Source: Natronosalvus caseinilyticus
GTDB lineage: Archaea > Halobacteriota > Halobacteria > Halobacteriales > Natrialbaceae
DNA length: 64,000 bases
Direction of reading: 5' to 3'
Assembly: GCF_017357105.1 (NCBI RefSeq)
Contig: NZ_CP071596.1
Location: 372,001-436,000, forward strand
The translations under genes were made by a program, and so were the position numbers. Position 1 is the first letter of the stretch. Every line of letters starts with the position of its first letter. The notes below the pieces were generated by a model that saw only the letters and a program-made list of their open reading frames with translations, was not told the origin of the DNA and ran no database searches. Shown here piece after piece: positions 2,828-37,961 of the stretch.

Positions 2828-3916
2828 CTACTCGAGGTGAGCGCGCAACCAGTCGGCCGTCCGCGGTCGATACTTGTGCGGAATGTTGTTACAGACGTGA
2901 TTGCCCTCGTCGTAGAGCAGGAACTCGCCGTTGGGCGCCCGCCTGGCGATTCGTTCCGACTGGCGTGGGTGAATGATCACGTCGTTCGCGCCAGTGGCGA
3001 CGAGCGTCGGCACGGTGAGGTTCTCGATGTCTCGACTGAGCGTGAGTTGCTCGGTGATCTCGTCGACCTCGATGAGCGAGTCGGTCTTGCAGGCCCACGC
3101 GAACTGCTCGGCGAGGAGTCCGCCACCTCTCGTACTGACGGGACCGACAGTGAACGGGCCGGAGATGCCGACACAGGCGTCGATCCGATCTTCGTTGGCC
3201 GCGACGTACGGGGCGTAGAACCCGCCGAGTGAAACGCCGTAGATGCCGATCCGCGACGTGTCGACGCTGTCGGGATCTCGGCGCTCGAGTTCGTCGAGCA
3301 CGCTTCCGACGAGCGCTGGATACTCGGGCGTCATGCCCTGTTCGTGCCAGGTCTCGCCCTGGCCGGCGCCGTCGACGGCGACCGTCGCGAGCCCGCGGTC
3401 GTGGAACTCGGCGGCGTACGTCGAGAGTTCCTCCTTGATCGAGTCCAGGCCAGGGATCAGGACCACGAGCGGCGCGCCCTCGCTTCCCACCGGCGTTCGG
3501 AGGTTGGCCGGGACGTCGAACCCACCGGCGTCGTACGGCGCCTCGATGCGTTCGAACGTCGGTTCGAGCAGCTCGGCACCGCGCCTGAACACGTCGACGG
3601 CGTCCGCGTGGACGTCGCGGCTCCGGTCGTCGTCCTCGTGCCAGACGTGCGAGCCGAAGTGGTAGTACATCGCCGCCCGGGTGTAGTGATCTCCGGCGCT
3701 CTCCTCGTCCCCACGGTCGCGCGCCTCGTCGCCGAGGGTCTCGTACTCTCGACCGACGCGCTGGAAGGCACCGAGCCATTCGCTCCAGTCGTCGATTGCG
3801 GTCTCGAGTCGCGCCATGTCGTTGTAGTCGATGCCGTTCGCGACGAACCGGGGCGTCCAGTTGGTCAGCGATTCCGTGACGAACGATTCCCCTCGCTCGA
3901 GTGTCTCCTCCGACAT
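2828..3916 (-). CDS. Alpha/beta hydrolase, FrsA / 2,6-dihydropseudooxynicotine hydrolase-like
   Basis: A 362-residue soluble hydrolase. An N-terminal helical domain (about residues 1-120, with YNDMARLETAIDDW and HFGSHVW) precedes the alpha/beta-hydrolase core. The nucleophile elbow is GVSLGG with S229, the acid is D312 in ATGANDVIIHP and the base is H340 in GNHVCNN. This domain order and elbow are typical of the DUF1100/FrsA and dihydropseudooxynicotine hydrolase group, whose members cleave C-C bonds of diketones or esters. It sits between an MFS transporter and an aldehyde dehydrogenase on the same strand, which fits uptake followed by cleavage and oxidation of a carbonyl compound. The substrate is not deducible. 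Confidence 0.85.
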   Translation of the reverse strand: MSEETLERGESFVTESLTNWTPRFVANGIDYNDMARLETAIDDWSEWLGAFQRVGREYETLGDEARDRGDEESAGDHYTRAAMYYHFGSHVWHEDDDRSRDVHADAVDVFRRGAELLEPTFERIEAPYDAGGFDVPANLRTPVGSEGAPLVVLIPGLDSIKEELSTYAAEFHDRGLATVAVDGAGQGETWHEQGMTPEYPALVGSVLDELERRDPDSVDTSRIGIYGVSLGGFYAPYVAANEDRIDACVGISGPFTVGPVSTRGGGLLAEQFAWACKTDSLIEVDEITEQLTLSRDIENLTVPTLVATGANDVIIHPRQSERIARRAPNGEFLLYDEGNHVCNNIPHKYRPRTADWLRAHLE

Positions 3917-5375: not shown

Positions 5376-7088
5376 TCAGCAGCCGTCTGCAGTCCAGTGT
5401 TTCATATGCCAGCGAAGCCACGCTGGGTTCCACACGGGTTCCACGCAGCCGTTGTGCATGACCATCCCCTCCTCCTGAGTGAGCGCGAGCACCGCCGGAT
5501 CCTCGAAGCACTGCTGCTGCAGTTCGGTGTAGATCTCGGCTCGATCCTCCTGGTCCGGTTCGTTGGCCGCCGCCTCGATTTTGTCGAGGATGCTCGAGTC
5601 GACGTGTTCGTACGCCCTGCTGCGCGAGCCGACGGATCCGTTCTCCATGTGAATCGCCCGGTAGTACGGATCGGGGTCGGGACCCTGGGGCAGGAAGCCG
5701 TGGAACTCCATCGGGAACTGGAACTGCTCGGCGGTGTGACGCTCCGTCATCTGCGACTCCGTGATAGATTCGACTCGGATCGTGATGTTGTCGTTGAGCG
5801 CCTCGAGGTTGTCCTTGAGCAGCAAGTTGCCCTCGGAGAACTCCGGGATACCCTCATCGAAACACGTGATGGTGAACCCACCGTCCCAGTACCCTGCCTC
5901 ACGAAGGAGTTCTTCGGCTTGCTCTGGGTCGTACTCGAAGTTCGGCGCGTTCTCGTCGTAACCGAGCATTCCCTCGAAGTGGTACTGTTTCATGCGCGTC
6001 GCGTGGCCGTTCCAGATCTGTTCGATGTACGTGTCGTAGTCGAACGCGAACCCGAAGGCCCGCCGGACGTTCGGATCTTGGAAGAAGTCCGAGTCGACGG
6101 TGTCCTCGTCGGGCATATTGTCGAGGTCGTACGGAATGTCGAAGTTGAACGTGATGTGGGCCGGGTCGAACAGGGGACTGAAGAAGAACTCGGCGTTCGG
6201 CGTCCCCTCGACGTTGCTGAGTTCCGCCGCGGGCGCCTCGGCGACGAGAGCATCGCCCCGTTCGATCATCGATGCCCGGGTGCCGATCTCGGGGACCGCC
6301 TGCTGGACGATCCGATCAATGTTCGGGTACTGGTCGTCCCAGTAGTTGTCGAAGGCAATCCACTCGATGCGTTCACCCTGGTTCCACTCGCCGGCTTCGT
6401 ACGGTCCCGTCCCGGCCGTGTTCTGCACCATCCAGTCGTTCCGCTGACCCTCCTGTACGCCGCCGTTTTCCTCGACCGCCTCCTGGCTAACGACGGCCAT
6501 CGCCGGTCGCGTCACGACGTTCGTCAGGAACGGGGCGAACTGCTCAGAGAGTGTGAGGACGACCGTGTAGTCGCCGTCGGCCTCAACTGACTCGATTCGG
6601 TCCAGTTGCCCGACGTCGGGGCTGAGGCCGATCGTCTGTGCGCGCTCGATGGAGAACACTACGTCGTCAGCCGTCATTTCGCCGCCGGTGTGAAACTCGA
6701 CGCCCTCTCGCAGTGGGAACTCGTAGGTCAACCCGTCGTCGGAAACTAACCCGTTGTCGTCGGACGGAACCTCCGTCGCGAGCCACGGCTCGAGTTCGCC
6801 ACCTTCCCCAGGAAACCCGAGGAGCGTTTCGTAGGCGTTTCCGGGGAACGCGAGGAACGAGACGTCGCTCGTCGTGTCGACGACGTGTGGGTCGAGATTC
6901 TCGGGATCCTCGACGTCGACGAACGTCAGCGTACCGCCTCCACCGCCGTTACCACCATTGCCGTTGTCGCCATTACCCCCGTTGCCGCCGTTGCCGTCGC
7001 CATTCCCACCCCCGACGCAACCTGCGAGTGCGATACCACTGCCTGTGCCCACTGCTGTGAGTAACTGCCGTCGTGTCCTCTGGGACAT
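5376..7088 (-). CDS. ABC transporter substrate-binding lipoprotein, family 5 (peptide/nickel/opine type)
   Basis: Extracytoplasmic binding protein of an oligopeptide-type ABC importer. The N terminus MSQRTRRQLLTAVGTG carries a Tat-like RR motif and a lipobox LAGC, after which a Gly/Asn-rich linker leads to the mature domain, as usual for haloarchaeal anchored lipoproteins. The mature part has the SBP_bac_5 signature region, with EFHTGGEMTADDVVFSIERA near residue 130. The 570-residue length is normal. The ATG at 7088 is preferred to an in-frame GTG at 7094. It is last in the order permease, permease, binding protein on the minus strand, 103 nt after the permease gene at 7198-8121. The ligand is unknown; the family also binds heme, opines and sugars. 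Confidence 0.92.
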   Translation of the reverse strand: MSQRTRRQLLTAVGTGSGIALAGCVGGGNGDGNGGNGGNGDNGNGGNGGGGGTLTFVDVEDPENLDPHVVDTTSDVSFLAFPGNAYETLLGFPGEGGELEPWLATEVPSDDNGLVSDDGLTYEFPLREGVEFHTGGEMTADDVVFSIERAQTIGLSPDVGQLDRIESVEADGDYTVVLTLSEQFAPFLTNVVTRPAMAVVSQEAVEENGGVQEGQRNDWMVQNTAGTGPYEAGEWNQGERIEWIAFDNYWDDQYPNIDRIVQQAVPEIGTRASMIERGDALVAEAPAAELSNVEGTPNAEFFFSPLFDPAHITFNFDIPYDLDNMPDEDTVDSDFFQDPNVRRAFGFAFDYDTYIEQIWNGHATRMKQYHFEGMLGYDENAPNFEYDPEQAEELLREAGYWDGGFTITCFDEGIPEFSEGNLLLKDNLEALNDNITIRVESITESQMTERHTAEQFQFPMEFHGFLPQGPDPDPYYRAIHMENGSVGSRSRAYEHVDSSILDKIEAAANEPDQEDRAEIYTELQQQCFEDPAVLALTQEEGMVMHNGCVEPVWNPAWLRWHMKHWTADGC

Positions 7089-7197
7089 GTTCACATATGC
7101 ATATTAAATCATAATAAACGTTGCGGCGATTCGTACAGCGATAATAACTATGATTAATTGAAACGGTGTCAGAAACGGGCGATCGGGTGGCCAAGTC

Positions 7198-8121
7198 CTA
7201 TTCAGAGAGCGCGCGCGGGTCGAGGACGTCGCGGAGTCCGTCTCCAATCATGTTCCAGCCAAACGCCCACAGGAAGATCGCGATGCCCGGGAAGACCGAG
7301 GTCCACCAGCGGCCGGCGACGAGGTCACTCTGGCCGTTCGAAATCATGACGCCCCACTCGGTAATGCCCGGTTGTGCCAGGCCGATGAAGGCGAGACTGG
7401 CGGCGATCAGGACGACACGACCGAAGTAAAGCGTCGACTGGACGAAGATCGGCGGGATCGCGTTCGGTAACACGTCGCGGACGAATAGCGAGAGCTCGCT
7501 CACGCCAGCGACGCGAGCCGCGTCGACGTATTCGTTGTTCTTGACGTGGATGACCTCGCCGCGAATGATGCGCGCGTACGAGCCCCACATCATGACCATC
7601 AACGCGATCGCAATGTTCTGGTAAGCCGGCCCTACGGCGACGACGAACGCCAGCGCGAAGATCAACGGTGGAATAGCGATGAGAGCGTCGACGACCCGCA
7701 TGAGCAAGTCGTCTACCCAACCGCCGACGAACCCGGCGACGCCGCCGACGATCGTTCCGATGAACGCCGTCACCGTTACGACGGCAATCGATAATCCGAT
7801 CGACAGCCGCGATCCCCAGGCGATGCCGTAGAGAACGTCCCCCCCGGTCTGGGTGGTCCCCAGCAGATGACCCTCGGACAACGGTGGTTCCTCCGCGTTC
7901 TGCCAGTCTCGAGGCATCTGATAGGCGTCCTGTCCCTGTGCGGGGAACAGCAGCGGCGTGAACAGCGCGAGGAGGATGAAACTGACGACCACGATGACCC
8001 CGATCAGGGTCAGTGGATTCTCGATCATCTCCTCGAAGACGGACCGCACTCGGTCCATTCGCATCTCGATACTTCGTCGATCCGGCGTCCAGTTTTGTAC
8101 GATTGACATGATTGCCCCCAT
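7198..8121 (-). CDS. dppC: ABC transporter permease, DppC/OppC-like
   Basis: A 307-residue inner-membrane permease with about six membrane segments. The EAA loop is visible as EYVDAARVAGVSELSLFVRDVLPNAIPP split over residues 190-220, the contact site for the ATPase. C-terminal VLDPRALSE is typical of DppC-type proteins. The start at 8121 lies 2 nt after the stop of the upstream permease (8124), so the two are translationally close; an in-frame ATG at 8109 is an alternative. It works with the permease at 8124-9137, the binding lipoprotein at 5376 and the divergent ATPases at 9468-12111. Confidence 0.93.
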   Translation of the reverse strand: MGAIMSIVQNWTPDRRSIEMRMDRVRSVFEEMIENPLTLIGVIVVVSFILLALFTPLLFPAQGQDAYQMPRDWQNAEEPPLSEGHLLGTTQTGGDVLYGIAWGSRLSIGLSIAVVTVTAFIGTIVGGVAGFVGGWVDDLLMRVVDALIAIPPLIFALAFVVAVGPAYQNIAIALMVMMWGSYARIIRGEVIHVKNNEYVDAARVAGVSELSLFVRDVLPNAIPPIFVQSTLYFGRVVLIAASLAFIGLAQPGITEWGVMISNGQSDLVAGRWWTSVFPGIAIFLWAFGWNMIGDGLRDVLDPRALSE

Positions 8122-8123
8122 CG

Positions 8124-9137
8124 TTATTCACCCAGTTCGACCCGCGGGTCGAGATACGCGTACGTGACGTCCACGCCGAGGTTGACGAGGATCGTCGACA
8201 CCCCGACGAGCAAGATAAAGCCCATGATAGCCGGTGCGTCGCCGGCAACCGCGGCGTTAGCGACCCACCTCCCCAGCCCCGGCCAGGCGAAGACCAGTTC
8301 GACGACGACGATTCCACGCAAGAGGAACGCGAAACTCAGTCCGGCGACCGTGACGGTCGGAATCAGCGCGTTTCGACGAATGTGTTTCGCGAACACGATT
8401 CCCTCTTTGACGCCGCGAGCGCGAGCCGCGTCGGCGTACTCCTCGCGTTTCTTCTCGACAATTTCGGAGCGAAGATGGCGGGTGATCACGGCCGACTCGG
8501 CGTAACCGATCGTCAGTGCCGGGAGGAACAGGTGCCAGACGGCGTCCCAGAACGCAGCCAGGTTCGCGTTCAACAGGGCGTCGAGCGTGTAGAAGCCGGT
8601 CGGGTGCGATATCGTCGCGTAGATAGCAGGGTCGGAACGGCCGAGCGGGAACCATCCCAGGTAGACGTAGCCGACCAGGATTAACATGAGACCGGCCCAG
8701 AACTGCGGGGTCGACATGCCACCTATCGCGAGCGCACGCGAGAAGTGATCGATCCAGGTGTCCTGGTACTTGCCGGCCAGGGTCCCCAGGGTTATGCTGA
8801 TGATACCGGCCACGATGATGCCGGCGATCGCCAGTTCGAACGAGGCAGGCGCCTTCTGGAGCAACGCGGAGGTGACCGGGGCGGACGCTTCGGTTGACCA
8901 CCCCCAGTTGCCCGTGAGTATCCCTCGCATCCAGATGAGGTACTGCTTCCACAGCGGTTCGTCCAGCCCGTACATCTCTCGCGCGGCCTCGACCTGTTCC
9001 TGGCCGGAGGCGACGTTTACGTATGCTCCGATCGGCACCCCCGAGATACGGGTTAGTCCGAACGTTATCAGCGTAACGAGAAAGATTGTGGGCACGAGGT
9101 ATAGGATACGTCTGATTACGTAGTCTCGAACTTCCAT
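8124..9137 (-). CDS. dppB: ABC transporter permease, DppB/OppB-like
   Basis: A 337-residue permease that opens the minus-strand operon. The N terminus RRILYLVPTIFLVTLITFGL is the characteristic first membrane helix of DppB, and the EAA loop reads EYADAARARGVKEGIVFAKH near residue 230. The TATA box at 9164-9170 is centred 29-30 nt from the ATG, so the mRNA is probably leaderless or nearly so. That TATA box is flanked by a perfect CACCAC/GTGGTG dyad. The gene forms the pore with the adjacent DppC-like protein. Confidence 0.93.
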   Translation of the reverse strand: MEVRDYVIRRILYLVPTIFLVTLITFGLTRISGVPIGAYVNVASGQEQVEAAREMYGLDEPLWKQYLIWMRGILTGNWGWSTEASAPVTSALLQKAPASFELAIAGIIVAGIISITLGTLAGKYQDTWIDHFSRALAIGGMSTPQFWAGLMLILVGYVYLGWFPLGRSDPAIYATISHPTGFYTLDALLNANLAAFWDAVWHLFLPALTIGYAESAVITRHLRSEIVEKKREEYADAARARGVKEGIVFAKHIRRNALIPTVTVAGLSFAFLLRGIVVVELVFAWPGLGRWVANAAVAGDAPAIMGFILLVGVSTILVNLGVDVTYAYLDPRVELGE

Positions 9138-9467: not shown

Positions 9468-10760
9468 ATGAGTACCGAAGAACGCGTTACCGGGACGGCC
9501 ACGACCGACGCCCCTAGCGAGTCGAGACCGCTGATCGGCCGCGTCGAGGATTTGCACCTGCACTTCGACACGAATCGCGGCGTCGTCAAGGCGCTCGACG
9601 GCGTGTCGTTCGACGTCTACGAGGGGGAAACGCTCGCTCTGGTCGGCGAGACCGGCTGCGGAAAAACGATCACCGCGCGAAGTTTCATGCAACTCGTTCC
9701 GACGCCTCCAGGACGATACGTCTCGGGACGAGTTCTCTTTCGAACCACCGAGGACTGCGCCGCCTGTGGGGGCACTGGCTGCGAGGAGTGTTTCGGGGAA
9801 GGGAAGGCGTTTGAAGACCTCCTCGAGCGGACTCCAGGAGAGATGCAACAGCTTCGCGGGAAGCGCATCTCCATGGTGTTCCAAGATCCGGACACCGCGC
9901 TCAATCCGTCGCTACGAATTTTCGATCAGATCGCCGAGAGCATCCTCTCTCACCACGGCGAAGAGGTGATGCGAGCGGCGGGCGTCGCCCCGGAGAACGT
10001 CAACGCCGCGATGTACTACGTCCTCGAGAACCAGTGTTCGAACGAGCGGTCGGTCGTCAAATCGCTGTTGAGCGAAATTCCGCCCCTGCGAAAACACAAG
10101 AAAGCGATCCGGGCTGAGCTCCGTGACCGTGTCGTCGAGATTCTGAACGACACCAACATTCCGAATCCCCCGGAGGTCATCAAGAAGTATCCACACGAAC
10201 TCTCCGGCGGGATGAAACAGCGTGTGATGATCGCGATGGGACTCGTTTCCAAGCCGGACCTGCTGATCTGTGACGAGCCGACGACCGCGCTCGACGTAAC
10301 GATCCAGTCGCGCGTGCTGGACCTGATGAACGACCTCAAGGAGAAGTACAACACCAGTCTCATCTACATCACGCACGACCTGACGCTCGTCGAAGACATC
10401 GCCGATCGAGTGGCCGTGATGTACGCCGGTTCGATCGCCGAGATCGGAACGGTCGATCAGGTGTACAACAACGCGATGCACCCCTACACGTGGGGGCTGC
10501 TCAACTCAATCCCGAACGAGGCGAACCTCGGCCAGGAGCTCCGGGGAATCGGCGGATCCATCCCCGATCTGACGCAGCCGCCGACTGGGTGCCGGTTCTG
10601 CACCCGTTGCCCCGAGGAGATGGACCACTGCTCGACCACGGTTCCACCAATCGTCGAACAGGAACCGGGGCACCGAGCGAGTTGTCACCTGTATCCCGAA
10701 GAGCAACACCAGGTCGTCAGGGAGGCGTACGATCCAATGGAGGAGACCGATGAGCACTAG
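9468..10760 (+). CDS. dppD: Peptide ABC transporter ATP-binding protein (OppD/DppD-like) with two CxxCxGxG motifs
   Basis: Energises the importer encoded divergently upstream. Walker A is GETGCGKT (60-67), the signature LSGGMKQR (245-252) and Walker B LLICDEPTTALD (265-276). The C-terminal oligopeptide-transporter region has C375, C378, C381 and C388 (PPTGCRFCTRCP). At 430 residues it is about 100 longer than typical DppD. One insertion, residues 97-112, reads CAACGGTGCEECFGEG, two consecutive CxxCxGxG units of the kind that bind zinc in DnaJ. A second insertion lies between the Q-loop and the signature (about 155-240). The last 11 nt overlap the start of the next ATPase gene. The ATPase assignment is firm; the role of the Cys insertion is unknown. 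Confidence 0.92.
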   Translation: MSTEERVTGTATTDAPSESRPLIGRVEDLHLHFDTNRGVVKALDGVSFDVYEGETLALVGETGCGKTITARSFMQLVPTPPGRYVSGRVLFRTTEDCAACGGTGCEECFGEGKAFEDLLERTPGEMQQLRGKRISMVFQDPDTALNPSLRIFDQIAESILSHHGEEVMRAAGVAPENVNAAMYYVLENQCSNERSVVKSLLSEIPPLRKHKKAIRAELRDRVVEILNDTNIPNPPEVIKKYPHELSGGMKQRVMIAMGLVSKPDLLICDEPTTALDVTIQSRVLDLMNDLKEKYNTSLIYITHDLTLVEDIADRVAVMYAGSIAEIGTVDQVYNNAMHPYTWGLLNSIPNEANLGQELRGIGGSIPDLTQPPTGCRFCTRCPEEMDHCSTTVPPIVEQEPGHRASCHLYPEEQHQVVREAYDPMEETDEH

Positions 10761-12111
10761 CGACCTACAGATGGACGAACGAACCGATAGCACGGAGTCG
10801 AACGTGATGGTCCTCGGGTTCGGCCTCAAGAAGTACTACCCCATCCGGGCGGGAATCCTGAACCGCCACGTCGGTGACGTACAGGCGGTCGACGGGGTCG
10901 ACCTTCGAATCGAGAGCGGGCAAACGGTCGGACTCGTCGGCGAAAGCGGGTGTGGGAAGTCGACGCTGGCCCGACTGCTGGTCAGGCTCGACGAACCGAC
11001 CGACGGCCACATCTACTTCGACGTTCCCAGCGACGTCGCCGACGAAATTACCGACCTCGAGACCGTCGACCACCGCTCCGATGCCGAACAGGACCGCCTC
11101 GAGACGCTTCGCGAGGAGTACGAGATAAATTCCCTGCGCGACGATAGACAGGCCGATTTCCGTCGCAACGCGCAGTTCGTCTTCCAGAATCCAACGTCGT
11201 CGCTGAACCCGCGCCAGTTGATCAAGGACATCGTCGCCCGGCCGCTCAAACTCCACACCGAGCTGTCGATCGACGAGCGGGAGGCTCGCGTGGTCGACTT
11301 GCTCAAGGAGGTCGGTCTGGGCGAGGACTTCATGTACCGGTACCCGCACATGCTCTCGGGCGGCCAGAAACAGCGTGTCGCGATCGCGCGGTCGCTCGCT
11401 CCGAACCCGTCGCTCGTGGTCCTCGACGAGCCGACGAGCGCGCTGGACGTGAGCGTCCAGGCGCAGATCCTCAACCTGCTTGAGGACCTGCAGGAGAAAC
11501 ACGGGTTGACGTTCCTCTGTATCACGCACGACCTCGGTGTCATCCGGCATATGGCGGACGAGATTTCCGTGATGTACCTCGGACAGATCGTGGAGCGGAC
11601 GTCGACCGATCGGCTCTTTTCGGCCCCGAAACACCCCTACACCGAGGCGCTGATCTCCTCGAGTCCGGCGATCGAGACGAACGAGGTTATCCACCTCGAG
11701 GGAGACGTTCCGGAACCGGAGAATCCGCCGACCGGGTGCCGGTTCCACACTCGGTGTCACAAGGTGGAGTCGTTCTGTGGCTGGAGCGGACGGGACCTGT
11801 ACGACCTGCTCGACCGCCACGCCGGCGAGGAGGGCGAGTTGAGACGGCTCTACGACGGGATCGAATCGACGTCGTTCGACGGCTACGAAGCCGCGTTCGA
11901 CTTCGCCGACGACGTCGACGTCGACCGGGCATACCACGTGTTGACCGGGGAATCCGACCATCTCCGTGCACACAAGCCGATGCTGTTCGACGCGATCAGG
12001 TCGGCCGACGCATCGAACCGGCAGGTAACGATCCAGTTCCAGCAGGTCGACCAGCCCGCGTTGCGTCTGGACGAGGAGAATCACGCGGTCGCGTGTTACC
12101 TCTACAAGTGA
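10750..12111 (+). CDS. dppF: Peptide ABC transporter ATP-binding protein (OppF/DppF-like), extended
   Basis: Second ATPase of the importer. Walker A is GESGCGKST (64-72), the signature LSGGQKQR near residue 201 and Walker B VVLDEPTSALD near 223. The 453-residue length exceeds the usual 320-350. Two parts account for this: an acidic insertion of about 45 residues between Walker A and the Q-loop (DVPSDVADEI onward), and about 110 residues after the Cys-containing PPTGCRFHTRC motif that match no domain I recognise. The start overlaps the preceding gene by 11 nt, so the two ATPases are translationally coupled. It is followed after 75 nt by a UspA-family gene. Confidence 0.92.
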   Translation: MSTSDLQMDERTDSTESNVMVLGFGLKKYYPIRAGILNRHVGDVQAVDGVDLRIESGQTVGLVGESGCGKSTLARLLVRLDEPTDGHIYFDVPSDVADEITDLETVDHRSDAEQDRLETLREEYEINSLRDDRQADFRRNAQFVFQNPTSSLNPRQLIKDIVARPLKLHTELSIDEREARVVDLLKEVGLGEDFMYRYPHMLSGGQKQRVAIARSLAPNPSLVVLDEPTSALDVSVQAQILNLLEDLQEKHGLTFLCITHDLGVIRHMADEISVMYLGQIVERTSTDRLFSAPKHPYTEALISSSPAIETNEVIHLEGDVPEPENPPTGCRFHTRCHKVESFCGWSGRDLYDLLDRHAGEEGELRRLYDGIESTSFDGYEAAFDFADDVDVDRAYHVLTGESDHLRAHKPMLFDAIRSADASNRQVTIQFQQVDQPALRLDEENHAVACYLYK

Positions 12112-12653: not shown

Positions 12654-13886
12654 TCAGACCCGGACGAACTCGGCCGGGTACGTCTGGAGATTTTCCGGCC
12701 CGTCCTCGCGAATGACGACGGTCGTCCCGAACTGCAGGCCGACCCGTTCGTCCGGCGTGGCGACGTTTGGCTGGACGACGATGACCTGTCCGGGTTCGAA
12801 GGTCCACGTTTCCGTGAGTGAATCGTCGATACCGGGCCAGTAGTTCGATTCCTCGACGCCGATGAAGGGGTGGCGATAGCCGCTCCCGTAACCGTGAACC
12901 AGCACGTCGTAGTTCTTGTAGGGCGAGTGCTCGAGGGGCGCCATCGCGTCGGCGACGTCCCTGGCAGTGTTTCCCGGTTGAAGGGCGTCGAGGATGCCGT
13001 CGTACGTCTCTCGAGCGACGGCGAACGCGTCGGCGTACTCGCGAGACGGTTCCGAATCGACGACGTAGGGTCGGTGAATCTGCGTCTTGTAGCCCCTGAA
13101 GCCCGCCGAAATCTCTGTGGTGACGACATCGCCCTCCTCAACCGTCCGAGCGGACGGTTGTTTCCACGGGAGTGGTTCACCCGGTCCCGCGCTCTCCTGC
13201 GGAGCCGAGGAAATAAACGTCGCACCGAGAGCCCCGCCCGCTTTCGCGCAGGCGTCGGCGAGGACGCCGGCCAGTTCTCGCTCCGTGACGCCGGGCTCGA
13301 GCGCCGTCTCGAAGGCGGTCATCGCCTCGTCCAGGAGGGTCGCCGAACGGCCGAGCACCTCGCGTTCGGCCGGACCGGTGACGCTGATGAGCCGGGTGAC
13401 GTCCGCGGTGACGTCGACGAGTTCGCCATCGAGATTGGCCTCGAACTGCATCGCGTGGTCGTGCGGGACGGAGAGGCCGTATCGGGGATCGCCGGTCGAG
13501 AGGCCGATCCGGTCGCCGTCGACGCCCGCCTCGCGAAGCCGATCGATAACCGTCCCGGCCGGGTCGGGGAGCATCGTATCGACGTCTTCGGCAACGCTGG
13601 ATTCCCGAACGTACTGAACGTGGTTGCTGATGCCGACGAGGACGGTCGTCGGCTCGTCGGGGTCCGCGAAGACGAGCAGGTACGTCGCGAACGGCGGCCG
13701 GTAGTCGAGCAGGTATCCGATCGTGTCGGCGTGGAACCCGCCGTCGCCGTAGACGACGAGCGCCTTCAGGTCGCGCTCCTCAAGGAGTTCTCGAACGGCG
13801 GCATAGCGGCGGTCGAACTCCGCGTCGTCGAAGCGCTCGTAGTAGGCCTGGCGGTCGTTCTGTTGACCCAGTCTGTATCGTGCCAT
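12654..13886 (-). CDS. M24-family (creatinase/prolidase fold) protein lacking most metal ligands
   Basis: A 410-residue protein with an N-terminal creatinase-type domain (about 20-160) and a C-terminal pita-bread domain (about 170-405). The five canonical metal ligands (Asp, Asp, His, Glu, Glu) correspond by position to E258 (TTEIS), Q269 (KTQIHR), H331 (HGYGSGY), Q372 (VQPNV) and Q385 (LQFGTT). Only the His is kept, so a dinuclear metal centre is unlikely. Metal-free creatinase is a known precedent that works through this His. The protein may therefore hydrolyse a C-N bond of a small guanidino or amide compound rather than a Xaa-Pro peptide. It lies next to a peptide/opine-type ABC importer. 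Family firm, reaction unknown. Confidence 0.85.
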   Translation of the reverse strand: MARYRLGQQNDRQAYYERFDDAEFDRRYAAVRELLEERDLKALVVYGDGGFHADTIGYLLDYRPPFATYLLVFADPDEPTTVLVGISNHVQYVRESSVAEDVDTMLPDPAGTVIDRLREAGVDGDRIGLSTGDPRYGLSVPHDHAMQFEANLDGELVDVTADVTRLISVTGPAEREVLGRSATLLDEAMTAFETALEPGVTERELAGVLADACAKAGGALGATFISSAPQESAGPGEPLPWKQPSARTVEEGDVVTTEISAGFRGYKTQIHRPYVVDSEPSREYADAFAVARETYDGILDALQPGNTARDVADAMAPLEHSPYKNYDVLVHGYGSGYRHPFIGVEESNYWPGIDDSLTETWTFEPGQVIVVQPNVATPDERVGLQFGTTVVIREDGPENLQTYPAEFVRV

Positions 13887-19768: not shown

Positions 19769-21346
19769 TTACTTTTTGGCGATACCGGACTCGAGCCCTG
19801 GACCCAGGTCCTCAAGCAGAACCGTCGCGCAGTTCCGTCCGGGCGCGCCGCTGACGCTCCCACCCGGGTGGGTGCAGGCACCGGTCAGGTAGAGTCCGTC
19901 GACCGGACCGCGGTAGTCCGAGAACCCGGCGGCCGGACGGCGGTCGTCGTACTGGTCTGGTGTGTAGTCCCCGCCGTGGCACGACCCGCGGTAGTTGTGC
20001 GGGTTGCGCCGCTCGAGGTCCAGTGGGCTCTCGACGTAGGAGTCGATGACAACGTCTTCGGTGAAGTTCGGGGCGTGCGTCCGGAGGTGCTCGAGCAGGG
20101 CGTCGGCGACGGCCTCCTTGCGCTCGTCCCAGGTTTCCGGGCCATCGGCGTGGTCGTACGGGAACACGCCGACGAGTTTGTAGGTGTGTTTGCCCTCCGG
20201 AGCTCGCGTGTCGTCGGCCACGGACGGGCACAGCGAGAGGATGAACGGGTCATCGAGGTGAATCTCGCCCTTCTCGAACGCGACCGTCGCGTCAAGGAGG
20301 TTCTCGACGCTGCCGACCGTCCCCATCGCGACGCTCTCGAGGTCACCGTCCTCGGTCCGATACCGAGGCGGTTCTTCGGCGGCGTAGTGGGCCGCGAACA
20401 TCGAGAGGCCGGCTTTCCAGTTTTTCACGCCATCTGCGAACGCCTCGGGGAGGTCCGCCTCGGGGATCATGTCCACGAGGTCGGTGACGTGAACCGTCGA
20501 GACCACTGCTTGGGTCGCGCGGTAGGTAGTTCCGTCGGCCGTTTCGACGCCGACGGCAGTCCCGTCCTCGACGAGAAACTCGACGACCGGCTGGTCCGTG
20601 TAGACCGTCGCACCGTGGTCGAGCAGGCACGACTCGAGTGCCTCCGGCAGCGCGGCCGACCCGCCCCTCGGGAGTACCCAGGAGTTCTTCTGACGGCCGT
20701 AGGTCAGCGAAAAGGCCCGCAATCCGCCACCAGGGCGATCGATCGGTTTGATCGTCATGAACGCCATCCACGCCAGGAACGCGCGCGTCTTGGGGTGCTC
20801 GAAGCGCCGCTCGAGGATGTCGAGCGGACTCTCGAGGCTCCGTCTGATCCACGCCTCGCCGTCCGGTGCCTTAGCGAGCGTCTCCGGAATCGTTCCCTCG
20901 GAGGGTGGCGAGTACCGCGCTCGTGTGTAGTAAGGAGCGATCTCGGCGTAGTCGTCGAGGAGATTGAGGTACGCTTGCGCGTCGGCTTCCGAGAACTTTG
21001 CGAACTCCGCGGTCGTCCGCTCGCGGTCGCGCCACATCGTGAGGCTCGTCCCGTCGTCGAAGGGAATCGTGACGACGGGGTCGGGCCTGATGTACTCGAG
21101 TCCGTAGGTATCGAACAGCTCGAGCTCGTCGTCCTTGATCGTCGGACTCGCCTGGATGAGGTTGTGGGCTGTCGAACACGAGTCGTGTTTGAATCCAGGC
21201 TGAGTCAGCTCCTCAGTGGCCGTGTCGCCGCCGATGGTCTCCTGGGCTTCGACGACACCCACGTCGAACCCGCAACGAGCGGCGTAGGCGGCGGTGATGA
21301 GACTGTTGTGTCCGGCACCTGCCACTACTATGTCGTGCGTTGGCAT
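19769..21346 (-). CDS. FAD-dependent oxidoreductase, phytoene desaturase-like (CrtI family)
   Basis: A 525-residue flavoprotein. The N terminus has the dinucleotide motif VVAGAGHNSLITAAYAAR, where the third Gly of the usual GxGxxG is Asn, as in the RPE65-unrelated CrtI-like and pyridine nucleotide-disulfide oxidoreductase-domain 2 group. The C terminus has GLYLTGACTHPGGSVSGAPG, the FAD-binding end of carotenoid desaturase relatives. It sits in a catabolic rather than a carotenoid neighbourhood (no crtB or other carotenogenic gene nearby), so an oxidation or saturation of another hydrophobic compound is as likely as a carotenoid role. A TATTTAT-like element at 21373-21378 lies about 29 nt upstream. 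Confidence 0.85.
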   Translation of the reverse strand: MPTHDIVVAGAGHNSLITAAYAARCGFDVGVVEAQETIGGDTATEELTQPGFKHDSCSTAHNLIQASPTIKDDELELFDTYGLEYIRPDPVVTIPFDDGTSLTMWRDRERTTAEFAKFSEADAQAYLNLLDDYAEIAPYYTRARYSPPSEGTIPETLAKAPDGEAWIRRSLESPLDILERRFEHPKTRAFLAWMAFMTIKPIDRPGGGLRAFSLTYGRQKNSWVLPRGGSAALPEALESCLLDHGATVYTDQPVVEFLVEDGTAVGVETADGTTYRATQAVVSTVHVTDLVDMIPEADLPEAFADGVKNWKAGLSMFAAHYAAEEPPRYRTEDGDLESVAMGTVGSVENLLDATVAFEKGEIHLDDPFILSLCPSVADDTRAPEGKHTYKLVGVFPYDHADGPETWDERKEAVADALLEHLRTHAPNFTEDVVIDSYVESPLDLERRNPHNYRGSCHGGDYTPDQYDDRRPAAGFSDYRGPVDGLYLTGACTHPGGSVSGAPGRNCATVLLEDLGPGLESGIAKK

Positions 21347-21434
21347 ACACCAGTAGTGGTCTCTGTGGTCCCATAAATCTACACCTCTCGCCAGTGACTG
21401 CAGCCTCGAGTCGAGAGAAACCGTCCCCGTCAAC

Positions 21435-21440: not shown

Positions 21441-21466
21441 ACGTCGGACTGGTTGGTATGAAGTGG

Positions 21467-22441
21467 ATGGCAGAATCTACCACAGACGTGGATCAATCGC
21501 TTCTCCTCGAACGAATGGAGTTGATCCGCCGATTCGAAACGCGCGTCGGCGAGTTGTTCGCCGACAACGAGATTCCGGGGTTCGTTCACCTCTACATCGG
21601 GTCGGAGGCCGTCGCCGTCGGCGCGTGCTCCGCGCTCGAGGAGTCGGACTACATCACGAGCACCCACCGAGGGCACGGACACGCCCTCGCGAAGGGGCTG
21701 GATCCGAAGAAGATGATGGCCGAGTTGTACGGTCGGACGACCGGGTACTGTAACGGCAAGGGCGGGAGCATGCACATCGCGGACGTCGACGCCGGGATGC
21801 TCGGCGCCAACGGCATCGTCGCGGCCGGGACGCCGATTGGCGGCGGGGCGGCGTTGGCCTCCCAGATCCGCGGCGACGGCGACGTCGCCGTCTCCTTCCT
21901 CGGCGACGGTGCCACCTCCAACGGCCCGTACCACGAGGCGCTCCACCTGGCGGCGCTGTGGGACCTCCCCCAAATCTACGTCGTCGAAAATAACCACTAC
22001 GGCGAGATGACCAGTGTCCACGACCAGCACCCGGTCAGCGACCTCGTCAAGCAGGCCGACGCCTACGACGTTCCCGGCGAGATCGTCAACGGCCAGGACG
22101 TGGAGGAGATGTACGAGGCCTCCCAGGAGGCCGTCGAGCGCGCCCGTGACGGCGACGGGCCGACCGTCATCGAGGCCAAGACCTACCGGTACAAGGGCCA
22201 CTACGAGGGCGACCCACAGTGGTACAAGGAGAACGAGGACCTGCCCGACTGGCGAACGGCCGACCCGGTCGAGACCTACAGCGAGAAACTGATCGACGCG
22301 GGCGTCATCTCCGAGGACGAGTACGAGGAACTGGGCGAATCGATCGAGAAGGAACTGGACGAGGCAGTCGAGTTCGCGAAGGACTCGCCGCTGCCGGAAC
22401 CCGACGCGGCGTACGAGGGACTGTACGCGGAGGAACTCTAA
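21467..22441 (+). CDS. 2-oxo acid dehydrogenase E1 component, alpha subunit (pyruvate/acetoin type)
   Basis: Thiamine-diphosphate-dependent decarboxylation of a 2-oxo acid or cleavage of acetoin, passing the acyl group to lipoyl-E2. The 324-residue protein has the ThDP motif GDGATSNGPYHEALHLAALW running to VVENN (about residues 146-176) and the upstream HRGHGHALAKG and GGSMHIADV segments typical of AcoA/PdhA. The loop after VENN reads YGEMTSVHDQ. The ATG at 21467 is preferred over 21458 from the TATA spacing. The beta subunit starts 2 nt after the stop. No E2 gene is adjacent; the only E2 seen is the OsmC fusion at 31575. Confidence 0.92.
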   Translation: MAESTTDVDQSLLLERMELIRRFETRVGELFADNEIPGFVHLYIGSEAVAVGACSALEESDYITSTHRGHGHALAKGLDPKKMMAELYGRTTGYCNGKGGSMHIADVDAGMLGANGIVAAGTPIGGGAALASQIRGDGDVAVSFLGDGATSNGPYHEALHLAALWDLPQIYVVENNHYGEMTSVHDQHPVSDLVKQADAYDVPGEIVNGQDVEEMYEASQEAVERARDGDGPTVIEAKTYRYKGHYEGDPQWYKENEDLPDWRTADPVETYSEKLIDAGVISEDEYEELGESIEKELDEAVEFAKDSPLPEPDAAYEGLYAEEL

Positions 22442-22442
22442 C

Positions 22443-23447
22443 ATGGCAACGACACCGACCGTCGACACCGACGGCGAGACCGAGGAGATCAGCGTCACGG
22501 AAGCACTCCGTGAAGCGATGCACGAGGAGATGGCCCGCGACGAGGACGTCTTCTTGCAGGGAATCGACGTCGCCGATCGTGGCGGCAGTTTCAGCGTCTC
22601 TGAGGGATTACTCGACGAATTCGGGCCGACCCGCGTCCGGGATACCCCTATCAGCGAATCGGCCATCGTCGGCACCGGCCTCGGAGCCGCCGCCGCTGGA
22701 ATGCGCCCGGTCGTCGAGATCATGTACTCCGACTTCATGGGTGTCGCGTTCGACCAGATCATGAACCAGGTCGCGCTGATGCGCTACATGTTCGGCGGGA
22801 AACTCGACATCCCGCTGACGATCCGGACCGTCGACGGCGGCGGTTTTTCGGCGGCTGCACAGCACTCGAAGACGCTCCACTCGCTGGCAATGCACCTCTC
22901 GGGCATCCGCGTCGTTGCCGTCTCGACGCCATACGACGCCAAAGGCCTGCTCAAGAGCGCGATCCGCCACGACGACCCCGTCTTCTTCTTCGAGCACGCC
23001 AACGTCTTCAACAAGAAAGGCGAGGTACCCGTCGAGGAGTACACGGTCCCGCTCGGTGAAGCCGCCGTGCTCGAGGAGGGCGAGGACGTGACCGTCGTCG
23101 CCACCCAGGCGATGCTGTACGAGGCGATGGACGCGATGGAGCAACTTGAGGGCGACGTCGACGTCGAACTCATCAGTCCTCGCACCCTCGATCCCCTCGA
23201 CATCGACACGATTGCCGCGAGCGTCGACAAAACCGGGCGCGCGGTCGTCGTCGACGAGACGCCGCTCATGGCTGGCGCCCAGGGCGAGATCGCCGCCCAG
23301 ATCAACGAGGAAGCGTTTTGGCGACTGGACGCCCCCGTCGAGCGCGTCGGTGTGCCAAACGTCCCGATCCCGTTCAGCCCGCCGCTCGAGCAGGAAGTGA
23401 TTCCGCATAGCGGCGACATCGTGACGGCGATCCGGAACACCCTCTGA
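22443..23447 (+). CDS. 2-oxo acid dehydrogenase E1 component, beta subunit
   Basis: A 334-residue transketolase-like beta subunit that forms the heterotetrameric E1 with the preceding gene. It has EALREAMHEEMARDEDVFLQG (split here at residue 18) at the N terminus, GTGLGAAAAGMRPVVEIMYSDF near residues 77-97, and the C-terminal transketolase domain with ISPRTLDPLD and VVVDETP. It lies 2 nt after the alpha subunit and 3 nt before the amidohydrolase, so the three genes form one operon. The complex would need E2 and E3 from elsewhere in the window. Confidence 0.93.
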   Translation: MATTPTVDTDGETEEISVTEALREAMHEEMARDEDVFLQGIDVADRGGSFSVSEGLLDEFGPTRVRDTPISESAIVGTGLGAAAAGMRPVVEIMYSDFMGVAFDQIMNQVALMRYMFGGKLDIPLTIRTVDGGGFSAAAQHSKTLHSLAMHLSGIRVVAVSTPYDAKGLLKSAIRHDDPVFFFEHANVFNKKGEVPVEEYTVPLGEAAVLEEGEDVTVVATQAMLYEAMDAMEQLEGDVDVELISPRTLDPLDIDTIAASVDKTGRAVVVDETPLMAGAQGEIAAQINEEAFWRLDAPVERVGVPNVPIPFSPPLEQEVIPHSGDIVTAIRNTL

Positions 23448-23450
23448 GCA

Positions 23451-24434
23451 ATGCGAGTAGACTGCCACACCCACTTTCTGCCGTCGCCCTTCCGGGACCG
23501 CCTGCGGGAGGCCGACGGCGAGGTTCGTATCGAGCGCCGCGGCGACCAGGAGTTCGTCTGTCATACGACCGGGTCGTTCCCCCTCTTTCCCGGCTTTCGG
23601 GATCCCGAGGCGCGCCTCGAATGGATGGACGACCAGGACGTCGACACCACGCTCGCGTCCGTCTCGACGCCGAACCCGAACGAGGGGCCGATTTCGGTCG
23701 ACGAATCCAGAACCCTGGTCCGGGCGATCAACGACGGGTTCGCCGACCTGCAGGACGAGTATCCCGGCCATATCGCCGGACTCGGGACGCTTCCGCTCCG
23801 CGAACCCGACGAGGCGGTCGCCGAACTGGACCGCATCGCGGACCTCGGCCTCGCCGGCGTCGCGCTGCCGACGACCATCCGCGGCACGAAACTATCTCAC
23901 CCCGACCTCGAGCCGGTATTCAACCGACTCGACGACCTCGACCTGACCGCGGTGGTGCATCCTGGGCGAAACGAGGTGAGCCACACCTTCGAGGACGAGG
24001 AGTGGATCTTCAACCCGCTCGCCGTCTTCCCGACCGAGACAACGATCCAGGTCGCCCGGCTTATCTTCGACGGCTTCTTCGACCGTCACAACTTCGACCT
24101 CGTGGTCTATCACATGGGCGGTGCGCTCCCCTATCTCGTGGGGCGGCTCGAGCGCGGTCGCGACCAGTTCCGACCGGGTCCGGACCAGCACCCCGAACGG
24201 CCCGTCGTCGAGTACCTCCGGGAGTTCTACTACGACACCATCTCGTTTCACCCGCCGGCGATGGACCTGGCGGTGGAGACAGTCGGTGCCGAGCGCCTCC
24301 TATTCGGCACGGACTATCCATTCGGGATGGAGAAGGCCGATCAGACGCTCGACGACCTCGAGGGACTCGAGCTAGAAGACGAAGTGCGGGCGGGCGTCAT
24401 GGGCGAGACGGCGGCGACGCTCTTCGATCTCTGA
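23451..24434 (+). CDS. Metal-dependent amidohydrolase (amidohydrolase 2 / ACMSD-like)
   Basis: A 327-residue TIM-barrel enzyme. Metal ligands are visible as HTH at the N terminus (H6, H8), a His in AVVHPGRNE, a His in VVYHMGG and an Asp in FGTDYPFG. The DCHTHFLP start and these motifs match the 2-amino-3-carboxymuconate-6-semialdehyde decarboxylase/gamma-resorcylate decarboxylase group, which performs non-oxidative decarboxylation or hydrolysis. It lies 3 nt after the E1 beta gene. Co-transcription with an E1 is unusual and suggests that it supplies or removes an intermediate of the same pathway. The reaction is unknown. Confidence 0.87.
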   Translation: MRVDCHTHFLPSPFRDRLREADGEVRIERRGDQEFVCHTTGSFPLFPGFRDPEARLEWMDDQDVDTTLASVSTPNPNEGPISVDESRTLVRAINDGFADLQDEYPGHIAGLGTLPLREPDEAVAELDRIADLGLAGVALPTTIRGTKLSHPDLEPVFNRLDDLDLTAVVHPGRNEVSHTFEDEEWIFNPLAVFPTETTIQVARLIFDGFFDRHNFDLVVYHMGGALPYLVGRLERGRDQFRPGPDQHPERPVVEYLREFYYDTISFHPPAMDLAVETVGAERLLFGTDYPFGMEKADQTLDDLEGLELEDEVRAGVMGETAATLFDL

Positions 24435-31574: not shown

Positions 31575-33290
31575 TCAGGACTGCTCGACGGTGATCGTCA
31601 CCGACTGTTCGAGGTCGTCGCTGACGATCCGGTTGACGTAACACGCTCGTTCGGCCGTCTGGACGACGCGCTTGACGTCGGACTCGTCGGCGGGGGAGGT
31701 GACGGTGATATCGACCTCGAGTCGTTCGATGGCGTCGTGGTCCGGTTCCGCGTCGACCTCGACCTCGACCCGATCGATCTCGACGTCGCGTCGCTCCGCG
31801 ATCGAGCCGATCATGAGCGTCAAGCAGGACGACAGACTCCCGAGGAACTGCTCGACCGGCGTCGGCGCCGTGTCGTCGCCGCCGTGATCCTCGGGTTCGT
31901 CCACGTCCCACTCGAAGCGTCGCGACTGGACGGTACCGCGCATGCTCCCGTCCGAGACCGCCCTCGCGCGACGACGCCCCTCGAGTTCGTCCGCGCGCTC
32001 CCGGAACGCGCCGGCTTGGTCCACACTCTCGCTCGAGGACCCGCCCCCGAGCGAGAGGAGGCGCGTCGGGTGCTCGAGTTCGTCCGCCAGGGCCTCGAGG
32101 AACTTCGCCGCGTCGGCCCCATCGACCGCGCGGTGATCGAACGTCAGCGAGAGGCCGAGGTGCGGTTCCACGTCGCCGTCGGCGGTCGGTTGTTGCGTGA
32201 TCGTCCCAACGCCGAGGATAGCGACCTCGGGGACGTTCAAGAGCGGGTCAAACGTCTCGACGCCGAAGTGGCCGAGATTCGTGACCGTGAACGTACCGTC
32301 CGACAGATCCTCCATGGTGAACTCCCGGCTCTGGACGCGGTCGACCAGCTCGCTGCGGGCCGCGTTGATGCCGACTAAGTCGAGTTCATCCACGTTATCG
32401 AGAACCGGCGTCACCAGTCCGTCGTCCACGTCGACGGCCACGCCGACGTTGACGTTGGCCGCGAGTTTGTGGACGCCGCCCTCGTACACGGCGTTGAACT
32501 CGGGATGGTCCCGGAGCGTCCTGGCGACGGCCTTGAGCAGGAAGTCGGTGAGCGAGACCTGTAGATCGCGATCAGCCGAGAGACTGTCCTTGAGAGCGAG
32601 GAGCGACTCGACGGACGCCGACCGGTTGAGCGTCACCTGCGGCGCCTGTTCGGCCGAGGTCGTCATCTGCCTGGCGACGGATCGACGGAGCTGTGATCCC
32701 TGGCGCTCCTCGTAGATTCCCCGACCGGCCGCAGCCGGTGTATCGGGGATGGCCGGTTCAACCGCTTCCCCGAGCGTCCCCGCCTCGACGGCGTCGATCA
32801 CGTCCCGTTCGACGACGGCCCCGTCCGGACCGCTTCCGTCCAGTGTGGCCAGCGCCGACTCGTCGACATCGAGATCGTTGTCGCGCACGTATGACCTGGC
32901 TCGAGGCGACACCTTCCCCTCGACTGCGAGCGCTGCGCCGCCACCCGCGCCCTCCGTCGTCGTAGCTGGTTCCCCGTCTGCCGGTTCTCCGTCGTCGCCC
33001 CCGCCGTCGTCGCCCTCGAGTTCTGCGAGGACGTCGTCGGGCACGCTCGCCCCTGGATCACCCACGTACGCGATCGGTGCACCGGGCTCGACCGCTTCCT
33101 CGAGGTCGACGAATCGCTCGAGCAAGACGCCGCCCTCGCGGGCTTCGACGTCGTTCGCGGTCTTTTCGGATTCGATGACGGCGATGACGTCGCCGGATTC
33201 GAACTCCTCGTCGGCGTCGACGGACCACTCGACGACGACCCCTTCCTCCATCGTCATCCCTAGCTGGGGCATGCGGACTGTGTAACCCAT
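31575..33290 (-). CDS. Dihydrolipoamide acyltransferase (E2) fused to a C-terminal OsmC domain
   Basis: A 571-residue multidomain E2. Residues 1-78 are a lipoyl domain with the lipoylation Lys in ESEKTAND (K43). Residues 79-122 form an acidic Gly/Pro linker. Residues 125-168 are a peripheral-subunit-binding domain (KVSPRARSYVRDNDLDV). Residues 197-411 are the catalytic core ending with HRAVDG (H386, D390). A short linker is followed at about 440-571 by an OsmC fold with TPVEQFLGSLSSC (E480, C489) and AERACYVNRIV (C550), the two-cysteine arrangement of OsmC/Ohr peroxidases. The reading frame is continuous with no stop or shift. E1 is at 21467-23447 and E3 at 37962-39377. The acyl substrate is unknown. 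The fusion predicts lipoyl-driven peroxide reduction in the complex. Confidence 0.9.
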   Translation of the reverse strand: MGYTVRMPQLGMTMEEGVVVEWSVDADEEFESGDVIAVIESEKTANDVEAREGGVLLERFVDLEEAVEPGAPIAYVGDPGASVPDDVLAELEGDDGGGDDGEPADGEPATTTEGAGGGAALAVEGKVSPRARSYVRDNDLDVDESALATLDGSGPDGAVVERDVIDAVEAGTLGEAVEPAIPDTPAAAGRGIYEERQGSQLRRSVARQMTTSAEQAPQVTLNRSASVESLLALKDSLSADRDLQVSLTDFLLKAVARTLRDHPEFNAVYEGGVHKLAANVNVGVAVDVDDGLVTPVLDNVDELDLVGINAARSELVDRVQSREFTMEDLSDGTFTVTNLGHFGVETFDPLLNVPEVAILGVGTITQQPTADGDVEPHLGLSLTFDHRAVDGADAAKFLEALADELEHPTRLLSLGGGSSSESVDQAGAFRERADELEGRRRARAVSDGSMRGTVQSRRFEWDVDEPEDHGGDDTAPTPVEQFLGSLSSCLTLMIGSIAERRDVEIDRVEVEVDAEPDHDAIERLEVDITVTSPADESDVKRVVQTAERACYVNRIVSDDLEQSVTITVEQS

Positions 33291-37126: not shown

Positions 37127-37248
37127 TAGTCCCTGTTTCTATCTACTCGTATTTAATGGCGATGGTGTGGCACAATGAACGGTGGTCGGCGAATGCCGGT
37201 ATCGAAGCCGCTTCGGTCGGCGAGTCGTCGGATTTCACGGCGTTTGTC

Positions 37249-37893
37249 TTATTCCGACGGGGGATCGTCGGTCATGTGTTCTCGGCAGACGTATCCCCGA
37301 TCGATCGCTTCGGTCAGCGGAATGCGAATCGGACACTCTGGACACTCGAGTTCGATCGACACCGAGACGGCCGCGCGTTCGCCCTGTCGAATCTCCCCCT
37401 TCGAGGACAGTGATCGGAGCGCGTCGTCGATCTTCGACTCCAGCTGTTCGCGAGCGATGTCGACACTGTTTCGCTCCCAGTCAGTTCGCGCCCGCTGGCG
37501 CTCCTTCTCGGCTTCGAGGCAGTCGTTGAGGTGACGTTGCATCGTACTCCAAGAGACGAACGACTTCTGGAGTTCGTCGACGGCCACGCCCTCACTTCGC
37601 AACGAATCCCGTACTTCCTCCGCGTACAGTTCGTCGTCTCCCGTGAGCGCATCGTACTCCCGGTCGAGTCGAGAGCCCCCCGTCTCGAGGCCGTGATCGT
37701 CGTAGACGCGTTTCAGTATCCGCTTGTTGAACCACTCGGTGAGCGGCCGGTACCCTTGCGCGGTCCCGCGGTCGGTCCCGGTCCAGCGAGCGACGAGGAG
37801 GTCGTCGAACGTCTCGTGTCGGGTGGACGTACCGTCGAGGTCGTATCTGTCCAGGGCGGCGCCAACCTTGCAACACGACGAATCCGTACTCAT
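37249..37893 (-). CDS. rdfA: Rod-determining factor RdfA
   Basis: A 214-residue haloarchaeal protein. The N terminus CCKVGAALDRYDLDG, then LTEWFNKRILKRVYDDHGLE, SEGVAVDELQKSFVSWSTM and QRHLNDCLEAEKER, and a C-terminal Cys-containing LECPECPIRIPLTEAIDRGYVC follow the order of the RdfA family. RdfA is reported to promote the rod shape in Haloferax volcanii. The ATG at 37893 is preferred because the preceding in-frame residues are not family-like. The SMC-like gene follows 122 nt downstream on the same strand. A DdfA-like third gene was not seen; the next upstream gene is the E3 lipoamide dehydrogenase. Confidence 0.85.
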   Translation of the reverse strand: MSTDSSCCKVGAALDRYDLDGTSTRHETFDDLLVARWTGTDRGTAQGYRPLTEWFNKRILKRVYDDHGLETGGSRLDREYDALTGDDELYAEEVRDSLRSEGVAVDELQKSFVSWSTMQRHLNDCLEAEKERQRARTDWERNSVDIAREQLESKIDDALRSLSSKGEIRQGERAAVSVSIELECPECPIRIPLTEAIDRGYVCREHMTDDPPSE

Positions 37894-37961
37894 GAGCGGC
37901 CCTTGGTGACTGCCAATCTCATATCTTTCGACTCGTCGCGAAAACAACCGCACCCCCTGAA

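Follow-up and report, generated by a model that had tools for sequence, protein, structure and literature searches.

The window, by which we mean the whole 64,000-nucleotide stretch analyzed here, carries on its minus strand an open reading frame of 410 amino acids encoding a protein of the M24 type (Table 1). The protein matches the Pfam domains Peptidase_M24 (PF00557; E 8.6e-25, 88.2 bits against a gathering cut-off of 23) and Creatinase_N (PF01321; E 4.2e-5, 24.5 bits against a gathering cut-off of 22). In addition to the neighbors listed in Table 1, further catabolic genes lie around it, namely an aldehyde dehydrogenase, an aldo/keto reductase, zinc dehydrogenases, an SDR, a cupin and a PF04199 cyclase. 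We take the alpha/beta hydrolase among the neighbors to be a retro-Claisen-type C-C hydrolase. The hydrolases, importer and oxidoreductases nearby point to a breakdown step for an imported small molecule. We found no named pathway that matches the gene neighborhood of the window. A creatine or ectoine pathway is unsupported by this context, and the neighbors differ from the ectoine-use genes given in PMC5924519.

The window also encodes an E2 dihydrolipoamide acyltransferase with a C-terminal OsmC-like match at residues 441-568 (NF041052, 78.5 bits, below the cut-off of 95). SMC-related and RdfA-like genes, named by eye, lie within the catabolic island both here and at L037:6756-9287, and are common to the window and a Halorubrum contig (47% and 45%, respectively).

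Table 1. Genes and codons of interest, in window coordinates.
Feature	Position	Strand	Remark
Alpha/beta hydrolase, 2,6-dihydroxypseudooxynicotine hydrolase-like	2828..3916	-	best solved match 2jbw, E 3e-33
Peptide/opine-type ABC substrate-binding protein, DppA-like	5376..7094	-	named by eye
Two ABC permeases, DppC/DppB-like	7198..9137	-	named by eye
Two ABC ATPases, DppD/DppF-like	9468..12111	+	named by eye
M24 gene	12654..13886	-	
G387 codon, second Glu-ligand column	12726..12728	-	alignments
Q372 codon, first Glu-ligand column	12771..12773	-	alignments
H331 codon, ligand-His column or His four residues ahead	12894..12896	-	alignments differ
Q269 codon, second Asp-ligand column	13080..13082	-	no variation in 43 rows
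E258 codon, first Asp-ligand column	13113..13115	-	aligns with Glu255 of EutD/DoeA 6twk
W241 codon, M24 catalytic-His column	13164..13166	-	alignments
FAD-dependent CrtI/CrtO-type oxidoreductase	19769..21433	-	homologue 51% in Actinomycetota-group contig L079
2-oxo acid dehydrogenase E1 alpha and E1 beta	21458..23447	+	recur near relatives
PF04909 amidohydrolase	23451..24434	+	homologues recur near family members
E2 dihydrolipoamide acyltransferase	31575..33290		
SMC-related and RdfA-like genes	35339..37953		named by eye

Predicted fold of the M24 protein

In sequence, the closest solved relatives of the M24 protein are prolidases (1pv9, phmmer E 8.1e-14). An AlphaFold2 model built from 12 aligned sequences has a mean pLDDT of 88.1 and a pTM of 0.86, with pLDDT falling below 50 at residues 347-353, and matches M24 structures of the pita-bread fold across residues 11-410. 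The creatinase/prolidase-type (M24) fold is thus predicted to be whole over the full length of the protein, in agreement with the first-pass annotation, which had called the fold intact.

The model was ranked against solved structures with two programs. VIA-align places EutD on top (6yo9, rmsd 2.6 over 363 residues; 6twk, rmsd 2.5 over 362 residues; both Z 38.2), followed by the prolidase 3q6d (Z 36.3); creatinase (1chm, Z 35.2; 7yto, Z 34.8), the lyase DddP (4b28, Z 32.1; 4rzy, Z 32.2) and the N-domains of SPT16 (Z 29.5 to 30.6) score lower. Foldseek ranks the prolidase-type aminopeptidase 5cnx first (E 3.7e-25) and EutD (6twk) eighth. As far as the model goes, EutD is the nearest solved structure by a modest margin and in one of the two rankings.

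Replacement of metal ligands and catalytic histidine

In textbooks the M24 fold serves as the scaffold of dinuclear metal peptidases; its ligand columns and catalytic-His column face one common pocket. We located these columns in the M24 protein using the best five structure-sequence alignments (1pv9, 3q6d, 5cnx, 1wy2 and 5cdl), MAFFT alignments and eight profile-profile runs against dipeptidase rows. The three kinds of alignment, including all eight profile runs, put E258 and Q269 at the first and second Asp-ligand columns and Q372 and G387 at the first and second Glu-ligand columns. The first-pass annotation had listed E258, Q269, Q372 and Q385 as the replaced ligands. The first three assignments hold, but Q385 aligns with a peptidase Arg two residues ahead of the last Glu ligand in the five structure-sequence alignments, in MAFFT and in 8/8 profile runs, and is rejected as a ligand position in favor of G387. 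The altered ligand columns accordingly contain Glu, Gln, Gln and Gly, in place of the three Gln proposed before. Q385 nevertheless goes together with Q372: it is present in 27 of the 33 family rows with Q372 and in none of the nine with E372.

The fifth ligand is less settled. H331, which had been read as the only ligand to remain, occupies the ligand-His column in the MAFFT alignments and in four of the eight profile runs, while the other four runs and the 1pv9 alignments equate it with a His four residues ahead of the ligand; in this region the remaining pairwise structure-sequence alignments scatter. Because the alignments disagree on H331, the ligands replaced number four or five of five, and all five may be gone from the protein. 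A further change, absent from the earlier annotation, concerns the catalytic His that precedes the GD motif in M24 metallopeptidases: structure-sequence, MAFFT and profile alignments give W241 in this column. Where a metallopeptidase of the fold has D-D-H-E-E, the protein therefore has E, Q, H or none, Q and G. From one Glu, two Gln, a Gly and perhaps a His no dinuclear site can be formed, which argues for metal-free action.

A family with a fixed Glu-Gln pair

Relatives were collected by searching 391 Halobacteria genomes, plasmid records and genome contigs, and then further genomes from those groups in which the contig scan had found members. From 45 family rows the partial L055 and L061 were excluded, leaving 43 near-full-length rows, the window among them, which were recruited by sequence or profile and not by signature, with the profile itself containing the signature, and which include several near-copies (L028 of L027; L030, L031, L032 and L064 of one another). 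Nine of the 410 window positions are invariant across these rows: E23, R27, E174, G199, R247, E258, Y266, Q269 and P340. E258 and Q269 are thus found together in 43/43 rows, against a mean column conservation of 0.51 (41 of the 43 rows). Column 387 is nearly as uniform (Gly 42, Ala 1), whereas the other columns of the pocket vary: column 331 has His in 37 rows and Gln in six, all of the Binatia type; column 372 has Gln in 33, Glu in nine and Lys in one; and column 241 has W (13), R (12), A (6), S (6), N (3), Q (2) or E (1), with His in 0/43. Judged by this alignment, the two former Asp-ligand positions, in their altered form, rank among the most constrained of the family.

This pattern bears on two other ways of reading the protein. 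The loss of metal ligands is what a functionless, decaying prolidase paralogue would present. Identical residues are, however, kept across archaea and bacteria in the 43 rows, no internal stop occurs in any of the 45 family rows and synteny is kept with a Halorubrum contig (see below), so that we regard decay, contradicted by the conservation of E258 and Q269, as exceedingly improbable. The earlier view of a uniform change rather than random decay is borne out in this respect, and retention of the pair in other archaea and bacteria suggests that the gene probably encodes a different small-molecule enzyme. It could alternatively encode a metalloenzyme with one metal on E258, H331 and Q372 or E372. 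The prevalence of His at 331 and the nine rows with Glu at 372 make such a reduced site conceivable in some rows, and a single weakly held metal may be present, above all where 372 is Glu. On the other side, the ligand columns of the window protein retain no more than a single Glu and a single His, the latter perhaps not the ligand one, and the six Binatia-type rows have Gln at 331. We consider a metalloenzyme of this kind improbable.

The family was found in Halobacteria, Binatia, Actinomycetota and Proteobacteria and is not purely haloarchaeal, contrary to what the protein had first been taken for. Its genes are rare and scattered. At least 6/391 Halobacteria genomes have a gene with the E258-Q269 pair (E-Q gene; four candidates scored per genome, E 1e-20); at least 7/391 matched in this search, and one of these, G043 (L015), is D-D-H-E-E and was set aside, as was L034. 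At E 1e-70 and counting the seed, family genes are present in 9/58 genomes of the class to which the Binatia genome belongs, in 7/246 of the phylum that includes the Actinomycetota genome and in 1/229, the seed itself, of the class that includes the Burkholderiaceae genome. Plasmid relatives were drawn from 8 of 226 matching plasmid records, plus one from another search. A Proteus mirabilis record of 4.08 Mb that is classed as a plasmid (L040, NZ_OL790811.1) contains a divergent M24 gene with E, Q, H, E and G at columns 258, 269, 331, 372 and 387.

Comparison with characterized M24 proteins

The ectoine hydrolase EutD/DoeA (6twj, 6twk and 6yo9), a metal-free enzyme, resembles the M24 protein in fold over almost its full length, and its other ligand columns are changed too. 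Its Glu255 (counted along 6twk_A) shares a column with E258; in a 2020 paper on the EutD structure this residue is reportedly part of a covalent intermediate. The two differ at the catalytic-His column, where EutD has His238 (counted along 6twk_A) and the M24 protein W241. Since the pocket His of prolidase and EutD is absent, the full chemistry cannot be shared, and with W, R, A, S, N, Q or E in that column across the family, the EutD mechanism is not transferable whole. A EutD-like paralogue in the same genome makes the difference explicit, with His, Glu, Pro, Ile and Ser at columns 241, 258, 269, 372 and 387 against W, E, Q, Q and G in the M24 protein; at column 331 it has Tyr by MAFFT and a gap by profile alignment.

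In a maximum-likelihood tree of 52 rows, in which two EutD-like rows stand for EutD in place of the solved EutD sequences, a branch with support 99/96 parts 42 family rows from 10 EutD-like, dipeptidase and other rows (own_L008, L055, L034, L028 and L061 were left out and own_L007 was removed before alignment). The M24 protein scores far below the NCBIfam cut-offs for ectoine hydrolase (TIGR02993, 31.8 bits against 613; NF038259, 64.6 against 575) and for DddP (37.5 against 600), and no NCBIfam cut-off was reached by it or by the seven family rows also scored. We reject orthology with EutD on these scores and the tree. Three rhizobial plasmid proteins of the Xaa-Pro peptidase family (L041, L042 and L044) share with the family a Glu at the first ligand column, but carry Gly, Ala or Thr where the family has Q269 and cluster with the EutD-like rows (99/97).

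Creatinase, another non-peptidase of the M24 fold, has the same fold and belongs to the same length class. It presumably depends on His232 in the column that holds the His of prolidase and EutD and, in the M24 protein, W241; none of the 43 family rows has His in this column. The first-pass annotation had proposed a metal-free hydrolase like creatinase. The metal-free part is consistent with the loss of the dinuclear site and with EutD as nearest solved structure; the likeness to creatinase finds no support in W241, at the column presumed for His232, or in the lower Z of creatinase (35.2 against 38.2 for EutD). Prolidase, PepQ and aminopeptidase P (1pv9, 3q6d and 5cnx) have the same fold and the highest sequence similarity, and differ from the M24 protein in that the latter has replaced the catalytic His together with all, or all but one, of the five ligands.

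The fold also hosts proteins that do not hydrolyze, or do not catalyze at all. The M24 domains of SPT16 and EBP1 bind a ligand or partner and are non-catalytic, and the M24 protein could likewise be a pseudoenzyme, with a pocket that binds a ligand or partner and regulates or scaffolds the neighboring pathway. The joint loss of metal ligands and catalytic His would fit, as would the match of the model to the SPT16 N-domains, with which the likeness is one of fold. Yet E258 and Q269 belong to the nine invariant positions of a family of otherwise middling column conservation, and the genes lie amid those of small-molecule catabolic enzymes and have no one constant partner, which makes a pseudoenzyme, in our judgment, rather unlikely. 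A lyase, hydratase or isomerase with E258 as base, in place of a hydrolase, also comes into question. The C-C-hydrolase-like gene and redox enzymes among the neighbors are compatible with it, as is the match of the model to DddP. According to PMC4108388, the DMSP lyase DddP is built on the M24 fold and carries out beta-elimination, but its metal-binding residues are invariant, whereas the M24 protein has replaced them. As a direct sign of elimination chemistry is also absent from our data, we hold this reading to be unlikely.

Our search of the literature on EutD and creatinase, the EutD covalent intermediate, the gene pair, M24 pseudoenzymes and metal-independent pita-bread enzymes found no such family among the papers listed.

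Two other types of M24 gene were noted. Haloarchaeal EutD-like genes occur at L020 / L113:8617-9795 (G000:C1, about 850.6-851.8 kb) and at L043:8001-9152; the L020 protein scores 456 bits to TIGR02993 (cut-off 613), and a rough gene list of the L113 surroundings contains no obvious ectoine-use genes by eye. In PMC5924519, ectoine consumers are reported from Proteobacteria only. A second M24 type, D-C-H-E-E, with Cys at the second Asp column, is present at four loci of the Actinomycetota group where E-Q genes are found as well (L077:14590-15936, L079:6214-7626, L080:1243-2481 and L095:2-1474) and elsewhere in the genome of the window (L005). The L077 copy scores 126 bits to the DddP model (cut-off 600).

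Recurrence of the gene neighborhood

Extensive synteny exists with the Halorubrum contig, which derives from a metagenome bin. Its genes are identical to those of the window at 50% (M24), 63% (alpha/beta hydrolase), 71% (aldehyde dehydrogenase), 79% (one zinc dehydrogenase), 72% (E1 alpha), 68% (cupin), 52% and 68% (amidohydrolases) and 42-59% (five importer genes). QOR, SDR, ALDH and ADH genes are among those shared, and the contig has a second E-Q gene (L016, 41%).

The association with the alpha/beta hydrolase was assessed across genomes. A homologue (E <= 1e-20) is present in 17 of the 24 genomes with family genes. In 9/15 non-Binatia genomes it and a family gene are no more than 10 kb apart, whereas copy number and genome size would predict about 0.09 such genomes. 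Both the 10-kb limit and the omission of the nine Binatia-class genomes were picked post hoc (all genomes, 9/24). In the nine non-Binatia genomes with such a pair the two genes are 16 to 9365 bases apart, and in three of them (G856, G289 and G668) 16 to 92 bases. None of the nine Binatia-class genomes has the hydrolase near the family gene. Among Halobacteria, at least 5/391 genomes have the hydrolase (five candidates scored per genome), and three of these five are among the six with E-Q genes (hypergeometric P 2e-5); in G173 and G239, which have the hydrolase, no E-Q M24 gene lies in the surrounding 20 kb.

Other neighbors recur as well. E1 alpha and beta are found again in L033 and L096 and E1 alpha alone in L038; PF04909 homologues lie near family genes in many loci, including L018, L032, L033, L086 and L093; and Dpp-type importers reappear in L038, L077 and L080, with weaker permease matches (35-36%) in L086 and L093. 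By rough gene calls, L030, L035, L039 and L087 have few or none of the window-type neighbors; such calls overlook some genes, among them the L035 C-C hydrolase, which was recovered by a separate homologue search. The catabolic company of the family genes is variable across genomes.

Proposed function

For the M24 protein we infer metal-free catalysis by E258, C-N chemistry and a class of substrate as follows. The family would have abandoned its catalytic His along with the dinuclear metal centre while keeping the fixed E258-Q269 pair in the old ligand pocket; as a rule its members also have Gln or Glu at 372 and a His that occupies the ligand-His position or lies close to it. As the invariant carboxylate at the place of EutD Glu255, E258 is the best candidate for the key catalytic residue, either a nucleophile or an acid/base, by analogy with the role of Glu255 in EutD/DoeA. 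Q269, H331 and Q372 may orient the substrate or a water. Most likely, a C-N bond would be opened or cleaved in a cyclic amide or cyclic amidine or in an N-acyl compound. The substrate would enter via the ABC importer, and the dehydrogenases, the presumed retro-Claisen-type C-C hydrolase and the amidohydrolases would be the partners in the pathway.

We rate the parts of this proposal separately. That the M24 protein is an enzyme without a dinuclear metal site, using E258, is moderately probable. That it is specifically a C-N hydrolase, perhaps a EutD-like one, falls somewhat short of an even prospect; C-N hydrolysis, which had been suggested before, is plausible. Taken together, a metal-independent small-molecule enzyme of an M24-fold family, using E258 and most likely acting on C-N bonds, is a proposal that we see as evenly poised. 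The family is best called a new family in the M24 fold, kin to the metal-free kind represented by EutD and creatinase. More tentatively, and with doubt prevailing, it might be a further class of metal-free M24 enzymes beside these two, one that has also lost the catalytic His retained by those two, has a Glu-Gln pair in the metal pocket and performs a ring-opening or a C-N or C-C step in an undescribed catabolic pathway of haloarchaea, Actinomycetota and Proteobacteria, with more members in Binatia.

Relatives are annotated as Xaa-Pro peptidase or M24 metallopeptidase, and if the metal site is replaced by the Glu-Gln pair they would be misnamed. The family would then offer a clean example of one active site remade for metal-free chemistry and a pointer to an unassigned catabolic pathway with a recognizable gene set.

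Two more loci deserve mention. In L096, a creatininase-family gene (PF02633, E 2.2e-56; L096:2074-2829) lies near E1 alpha and beta and a truncated E-Q gene. On a Sphingobium plasmid, an M24 gene (L097:12001-13135; 32% to L056, in two pieces) comes after genes for a flavin reductase, a cupin, a fumarylacetoacetate hydrolase and a class II aldolase.
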